Below, in pieces: positions 18,733-19,176 of a stretch of 42,723 nt of DNA. Source of the DNA: a virus. The position numbers and the translations under genes are program-made. The notes beneath the pieces are model-generated. The model was not told the DNA's origin. It saw nothing but the letters and a program-made list of their open reading frames with translations, and made no database searches. The stretch covers positions 1-42,723 of the IMG/VR virus record IMGVR_UViG_3300046816_000422; one strand, written 5' to 3'. Position 1 is the stretch's first letter, and each line of letters opens with the position of its first letter.

Positions 18733-19176
18733 GCCAGGCGGACCCTACCTACTCGACCGGCGAAAATCCTGCCGGCCGGACAAACAGTGGCGGCCCTGGG
18801 AGTCGAACCCAGCTCCCGAGTTGCTTACAGGCTCCTATGGGCGGAATGCGCCTGCCATGCTCGAGCGACTTTCTCAACGAGTCGAGGCCGCCGTGAAGCT
18901 CTCCTCCGCCGGGCGCCGTTGGCGTGGCAAGCCACCCCCAGCAAGGCGGCCGCATCGCGTGTGCGCACACTCTCAGTCGGTCGTTTGGTCCGCTGGCCGT
19001 GACCGGCCGCAGCCCGGCGAAGCTCCCGCCGCCTGTGTCGAAGCCGGCAGGGATTCCCGGCGACGGCGGGTCGAGGAGGAGAGTCCTCTATGCCGCGTGG
19101 CCCAAGACACAGCTCGACTGCGAGGCGCTTGGCTGTCCCTCGGATATGTGGAGGGACTGCACACGGGCGGCGCCGA
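18733..19176 (-). other. structured non-coding segment
   Basis: 444 bases without a believable gene. It has several hairpins on the minus strand: GTCCCTC/GAGGGAC (19135-19157, 9-base loop), CCCGCCG/CGGCGGG (19025-19070) enclosing GCCGG/CCGGC (19043-19061), the perfect palindrome GTGTGCGCACAC (18959-18970), GTGGCAAGCCAC (18924-18935), and the tRNA-like unit at 18789-18892. A TATAAT hexamer (19176-19181, minus strand) overlaps the upstream stop and could start an RNA here, but no good -35 is seen. Apparent frames such as 18749-18970 end in the string SWVRLPGPP, a typical false translation of a tRNA 3' end. Confidence 0.55.
18789..18892 (-). tRNA. tRNA-like sequence with non-canonical central region
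   Basis: On the minus strand: acceptor GGCGGCC (18886-18892) pairs perfectly with GGCCGCC (18789-18795). A T-arm follows the tRNA rules: CTGGG, loop TTCGACT, CCCAG (18796-18812), then discriminator A at 18788; CCA is not encoded. A D-like arm CGACT...AGTCG follows the 5' acceptor. The 53 bases between D and T arms do not fold into a normal 5-bp/7-base anticodon arm; they form an extended hairpin (CAGGC/GCCTG inside CGAG/CTCG). The total of 104 bases is longer than standard tRNAs. Alternatives: phage tRNA with an unusual insert, a decayed tRNA, or an attP site carrying a host tRNA 3' end. Confidence 0.45.

Follow-up and report, generated by a model that had tools for sequence, protein, structure and literature searches.

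A tRNA-like RNA with a hairpin at the place of the anticodon arm, and miniature tRNA-like elements, between the genes of a soil phage and its relatives

The analyzed stretch of DNA, hereafter the window, spans 42,723 bases of an IMG/VR virus record and contains genes for a portal protein, a terminase, a DnaB-like helicase, an exonuclease, a Sak4-like annealing protein, and a tyrosine integrase. The RNA described here is carried by an integrase-bearing soil phage. A full-size tRNA-like RNA (TLS) lies on the minus strand of the window, and two miniature tRNA-like elements (minis) lie on the plus strand (Table 1). No homologs were found among annotated phages by DNA similarity, and no relatives of the exonuclease were found in bacterial genomes; among phages, the best-covered protein matches have less than 30% identity, and the phages concerned have mixed hosts.

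Table 1. Coordinates and supporting evidence of the features described in the window
Feature	Position	Strand	Evidence and remarks
Full-size TLS, 105 nt including discriminator A73	18788..18892	-	fold; 13 homologous loci with covariation; leave-one-out model, 63.8 bits
TLS acceptor, 5' strand GGCGGCC	18886..18892	-	pairs with 18789-18795, 7/7
TLS acceptor, 3' strand GGCCGCC	18789..18795	-	followed by A73 at 18788; no encoded CCA
TLS D-arm GACT-CGTTGAGAA-AGTC	18867..18883	-	fold; covariation of pair 12-27
TLS hairpin at the anticodon-arm place	18815..18865	-	51 nt; fold
TLS T-arm CTGGG-TTCGACT-CCCAG	18796..18812	-	5-bp stem, 7-nt loop; fold, T-stem pairing in relatives
Conserved 5' leader GGCGCCCGGCGGAGGAGAGCTTCAC	18893..18917	-	immediately upstream of TLS; alignment A9, 12 loci
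Mini, acceptor GCGCG/CGCGC, linker CTTGGAGCTTG, 7-bp T-arm	15517..15559	+	unrelated-phage model, 27.6 bits, E 3.3e-5
Mini, acceptor GGGCG/CGCCC, linker AATGGCGTTG, 6-bp T-arm	16564..16603	+	unrelated-phage model, 50.2 bits, E 1.4e-11
Tyrosine integrase	27152..28165	-	Pfam PF00589, E 3e-20; 8.3 kb from TLS

A first-pass annotation, made from the sequence alone, had reported at 18789-18892 a tRNA-like element without a normal anticodon arm, in which a complete acceptor of seven pairs, a D-like arm, and a T-arm surround one long middle hairpin. Each of these parts was recovered by folding, and the minus strand was identified as the sense strand. The latter assignment follows from the U6-G67 wobble pair, which is kept in most relatives of the TLS and which would turn into an A-C mismatch if the plus strand were the transcribed one; the plus-strand reading was rejected, since the tRNA arms also fail to form in it. 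With regard to the hallmarks of decoding tRNAs, the TLS has a 7-bp acceptor and a 5-bp T-arm with a TTCRANY loop, and it lacks the G18-G19 sequence of the D-loop: in the window, G18 is followed by A in place of G19, and in the family alignment A3 the conserved G18 is followed by A, C, or G. Among the 14 full-size copies, the discriminator is A in eight and C in six, and CCA is mostly unencoded. The fold energy taken alone is moderately unusual (z -2.3). Perfect T-arms with at least five Watson-Crick pairs occur four times in the window, compared with 0.17 expected under a Markov model; three of them are parts of tRNA-like elements, and the remaining one is intragenic and has no acceptor. ARAGORN produced no match in the window, and Rfam yielded no match to the TLS even when the threshold was relaxed to E<=5 on the local stretch.

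No standard promoter or terminator was found around the TLS. The conserved noncoding stretch 18893-19020 upstream of it, which includes the conserved leader, contains in most relatives the sequences AGCGGACCAA..CGACCGA, GCTGGGG, and GGCGCCCGG, and may contain the promoter or a longer leader.

To collect relatives, we searched with the neighboring exonuclease family and obtained 12 phage loci; two contigs encountered later, L071 and L078, were added to the TLS set. All 13 relatives that reach the place have the same RNA in a syntenic position, within the same operon and in an unchanged orientation, which gives 14 contigs including the window. The sole contig without the TLS (L004/L007) stops before the place. 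The total length of the RNA varies from 76 to 116 nt. Alignment A3 has 94.8% of cells paired in the acceptor, D, and T helices, and 8 of the 16 pairs have changes on both sides. The acceptor is paired in 98.8% of cells over 12 sequences, double changes being present, whereas the T-stem is paired in 100% of cells with double changes in four of its five pairs; in the D-stem, pair 12-27 changes from C-G to G-C in L011, L013, and L017. The covariation score of A3 is 0.332, compared with 0.104 for shuffled alignments, and none of 500 shuffles reaches it. The signal is abolished by sliding the pairing partners, and the result stands when the alignment is extended to 13 sequences with the hairpin base added. 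A leave-one-out covariance model, built from the 13 relatives only with the window excluded, matches the TLS of the window with 63.8 bits (E 4.6e-13). The two minis follow as the next matches of this model in the window, although their scores are weak (18.0 and 14.7 bits). We interpret the TLS as a conserved non-coding RNA gene; the covariation evidence for this full-size family is new. Variation without compensatory changes had been named in the first-pass annotation as grounds for abandoning the element; the observed changes are compensatory, and the element stands.

Matches to the full-size model were also seen in an otherwise unrelated viral contig, L020, where, within 7914-8709 on the minus strand, further weak hits (26.4 and 24.2 bits) accompany a mini. 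This region is possibly a cluster of tRNA-like RNAs.

The compensatory variation of the TLS bears on the suggestion that the TLS is the copied 3' end of a host tRNA gene, used as attP by the tyrosine integrase. The phage does encode such an integrase, and tRNA-like attP sequences with unconventional folds are known: in halovirus HF2, which also encodes an integrase, a tRNA-like attP is located near the integrase gene and matches host tRNA genes exactly over 57 nt (PMC8707807). However, what attP copies contain is a 3' portion of a host tRNA rather than a full set of covarying helices, whereas the 3' half of the TLS varies among relatives with compensatory changes; in addition, the TLS is not beside the integrase gene but 8.3 kb apart. 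In L008, a separate sequence resembling a tRNA 3' end, GGCGGGTTCGATTCCCGTCGCCTCCA, is found directly upstream of the integrase gene, while the TLS of this contig occupies its usual place. We therefore consider an attP role of the TLS very improbable. The tRNA-like sequence upstream of the L008 integrase gene (3604-3682) is itself a likely attP.

The region between the D-arm and the T-arm is variable. In every member it consists of (i) the single nucleotide 26, (ii) a hairpin, and (iii) a variable region of about 4 nt (2 nt in the window); since only nucleotide 26 and this short region flank the hairpin, it lies exactly at the place of the anticodon arm. In the window, the hairpin is composed of the bottom stem CTCGAG/CTCGGG, an asymmetric internal loop, the second stem CAGGC/GCCTG, and a variable apex. 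This succession of bottom stem, asymmetric internal loop, and second stem is the usual plan of the family, and the second stem may be CAGGC/GCCTG, CAGAT/ATCTG, GAGGC/GCCTC, or others. The region between the two arms ranges from 25 to 63 nt and has no common loop, and the apex is unshared among members, save for the motif GTAGCTGTC present in L012, L015, L016, and L071. A 5-bp anticodon stem with a 7-nt loop was observed in none of the 12 folded members. The shortest member, the 76-nt RNA of L014, has a 10-nt loop and is read by ARAGORN as tRNA-Val(gac); it is the only member recognized by ARAGORN, and Rfam matches none.

Two kinds of repeats were noticed in the same region. The motif TAGCTGTC occurs inside the TLS hairpin of L012, L015, L016, and L071 and just downstream of the TLS in L003, L011-L014, and L017, a pattern resembling the insertion of a copied repeat into the hairpin. 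In L010-L012 and L014-L017, inverted repeats TCCGGC-N-GCCGGA recur immediately past the TLS (position 13851 in L014), and one is also present at position 23094 of the window; up to three of them are present per 21-kb locus, and they are possibly operators.

The TLS could alternatively be a decoding tRNA that either has an enlarged anticodon arm or carries an insert removed post-transcriptionally. The exact position of the hairpin between nucleotide 26 and the short variable region and the tRNA-Val(gac) reading of the L014 RNA fit this scheme; on the other hand, no member has the 5-bp stem and 7-nt loop, the internal-loop and apex sequences are unshared among members, no match to a self-splicing intron was found in Rfam, and bulge-helix-bulge splicing is not known in phages of bacteria. 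A decoding function thus appears improbable. The proposal of a tRNA with an insert, made in the first-pass annotation, may fit the origin of the RNA, but it does not describe the present family, in which the canonical anticodon arm is absent throughout. Another proposal made there, a tRNA mimic that does not decode, agrees with the retention of the three tRNA helices by compensatory changes and with the hairpins at the anticodon-arm place. The TLS is best read as such a mimic, since the place of the anticodon arm is taken by a fast-evolving hairpin, the 7-nt loop is absent, and G19 is not kept. We infer that the RNA is neither charged nor used by ribosomes.

Among known RNAs, the tRNA-like domain of tmRNA (SsrA) is similar in that it is non-decoding and combines an acceptor and a T-arm with a long helix at the place of the anticodon arm. 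In contrast to tmRNA, the TLS has neither an mRNA part nor a tag, is 76-116 nt long, and has no tmRNA match in Rfam. The alanine identity pair used by AlaRS in tmRNA is G3-U70; all aligned TLS sequences have C3-G70 instead. A candidate tmRNA-like tag in the window hairpin, AUG-GCA-GGC...UAG, was rejected: it is partly common to L002 only and is lost elsewhere.

The fast evolution of the hairpin also raises the possibility of a regulatory or decoy RNA on a tRNA scaffold, in which the tRNA-like body would confer stability and the hairpin would work as an antisense element or as a bait for a host defense enzyme directed at tRNAs. The apex changes fastest, which is compatible with an arms race or a shifting target, and the conserved 5' leader suggests a dedicated transcript. 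However, the recurring two-stem plan of the hairpin would be unneeded by a pure antisense loop, and anticodon nucleases usually require a specific anticodon loop. We regard this possibility as rather unlikely.

The two minis of the window were revealed by the scan for T-arms. Both are located between small plus-strand genes and end about 35 nt ahead of the likely next ATG; in the mini at 16564..16603, the first base coincides with the G of the stop codon TAG upstream. The mini design includes (i) an acceptor-like stem of 5-7 bp, (ii) a linker, about 10 nt long, that contains a conserved GG, and (iii) a T-arm of 6-8 bp with a TTCGATT loop, so that the acceptor and the T-arm together make up an almost uninterrupted helix of about 12 bp. 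The related phages have one to three minis each, with acceptors that differ and yet remain complementary; the mini model detected none in the L010 contig. When viral contigs and bacterial genomes were scanned for the pattern, this design was recovered from many unrelated phages and from Lachnospiraceae and other clostridial contigs. In addition, a DNA search located unannotated minis in four cultured phages: Mycobacterium phage Indlulamithi, Streptococcus phage D4446, Corynebacterium phage PSonyx, and Microcystis phage Mel-JY01. The inspected Lactococcus 936-type and Pseudomonas matches to the mini consensus were rejected; they lie within ordinary tRNA gene clusters or tRNA remnants.

Comparison of the minis revealed that the TTCGATT loop and the linker GG are nearly invariant, while the stems vary freely, and that the total helix length in 78 minis has its mode at 12 bp (32/78). 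In a derangement test with repeated pairing search, applied to the Indlulamithi copies, the copies of the window family, and those of unrelated phages, sets that had been partly chosen for pairing, the 5' and 3' strands of the same mini pair far better than crossed strands (0/2000 for each set). Alignment A8 excludes the phage family of the window and comprises members chosen as having both helices; all its cells are paired, 9 of its 11 pairs have double changes (5/5 in the acceptor and 4/6 in the T-stem), and its covariation score is 1.03 versus 0.21 after shuffling (0/500). Model R2, constructed from A8 and hence from unrelated phages, finds both minis of the window and those of its relatives. 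In the full-size TLS, R2 matches the T-arm only (16 bits, E 0.059), and therefore the full-size RNA lies outside the mini family. It may work similarly to the minis, or the two may have different roles. Across ten loci scanned, no Rfam family covers the minis, and no description of anticodon-less tRNA mimics between genes of DNA phages was found in open-licence papers and Rfam. Anticodon-less minis repeated between genes of unrelated phages are reported here as new.

The minis keep a conserved distance from stop and start codons in Mycobacterium phage Indlulamithi (NC_048824; L145 and L146), which is grown on M. smegmatis. Its region 35035-42373, a 7.3-kb stretch of small genes in one operon, contains 11 unannotated minis, ten of which are fully intergenic, while the remaining one has a 25-nt overlap with an annotated start; a random 41-mer in this stretch is intergenic with a probability of 0.11. 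The minis start 6-13 nt after a stop codon in 10 of the 11 cases and 136 nt after it in one, and the ten intergenic copies end 35-46 nt short of the next annotated start. Such positions between small genes, often beginning at the stop codon, would also suit a function at the level of DNA, with the elements serving as terminators or as recombination sites between gene cassettes and not as tRNA-like RNAs. However, no U-tract follows the minis and no terminator is seen at the TLS; the near-invariant TTCGATT and linker GG, combined with freely changing stems, fit a tRNA elbow; and the minis and the full-size RNA are on opposite strands, each sense to its own operon. A DNA-level function accordingly has a low probability.

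The explanation that we prefer, at roughly even chances, is that the full-size tRNA mimic and the minis recruit host tRNA enzymes. We hold its structural and non-decoding parts strongly, the recognition of the conserved half by host tRNA enzymes with moderate confidence, and the downstream purpose of the TLS and minis with weak confidence. The acceptor/T helix of 12 bp is the geometry measured by RNase P; it is present in the TLS (7+5) and is the most frequent length among the 78 minis. Known substrates of RNase P include phage M3 RNA and the phage C4 antisense RNA, as well as some mRNAs (PMC11143913), and the tRNA elbow is also recognized by RNase Z and by the CCA-adding enzyme (PMC4810234). 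The conserved acceptor/T-arm half would be kept for recognition by host enzymes, namely RNase P at its 5' end and, at its 3' end, RNase Z together with the CCA-adding enzyme. The minis probably recruit the tRNA-cutting enzymes of the cell, so that a polycistronic phage mRNA might be cut between cistrons, or its ends capped or protected, in the manner of tRNA punctuation; processing of the full-size TLS might free or stabilize a small RNA presenting the variable hairpin. Since the discriminator is either A or C and CCA is mostly unencoded, contact with RNase P through RCCA would remain weak until CCA is added. Further observations count against the preferred explanation: G19 is not kept, no standard promoter or terminator was found around the TLS, and R2 leaves the TLS beyond the T-arm unmatched.

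The minis and the TLS resemble several known systems. The 12-bp helix with a T-loop is shared with model substrates of RNase P composed of the acceptor stem, T-stem, and T-loop, such as AT1, and M3 RNA and C4 antisense RNA are likewise phage-encoded non-tRNA RNAs (PMC11143913). In contrast to these substrates, the minis are natural elements repeated between genes, have an extra GG linker, and are only putatively cleaved, whereas the full-size TLS has a full D-arm and a long hairpin. In mitochondria, tRNA folds between genes serve as cut signals in long transcripts; the likeness is an analogy, as the mitochondrial elements are real decoding tRNAs, whereas the phage elements are non-decoding mimics with putative cutting. 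Plant RNA viruses and a few phage RNAs offer well-known examples of tRNA mimicry. The tRNA-like structures of plant RNA viruses and the non-coding mascRNA and menRNA recruit RNase P and related enzymes (PMC5723415, PMC11693755); unlike them, the elements described here belong to DNA phages, have no pseudoknot, and are unrelated in sequence.

A broader version of the preferred explanation, in which the minis of many unrelated phages are punctuation signals for RNase P and RNase Z and the TLS is their elaborated stand-alone form, is tentative, and we place it somewhat below an even chance. If true, it would represent a previously unnoticed and widespread layer of phage gene regulation. If RNase P cuts the minis, phage operons would be punctuated in the way mitochondrial transcripts are, and tRNA-finding programs would be overlooking a class of phage RNAs.

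Two further minis have RNA-related neighbors. In Corynebacterium phage PSonyx, a mini (L144, 2497-2537) is located directly ahead of a gene annotated as an RtcB-like RNA ligase. In the Parablautia intestinalis contig L135, a Pistol ribozyme (2023-2092; RF02679, 68.8 bits) is found about 200 nt from a mini on the same strand.
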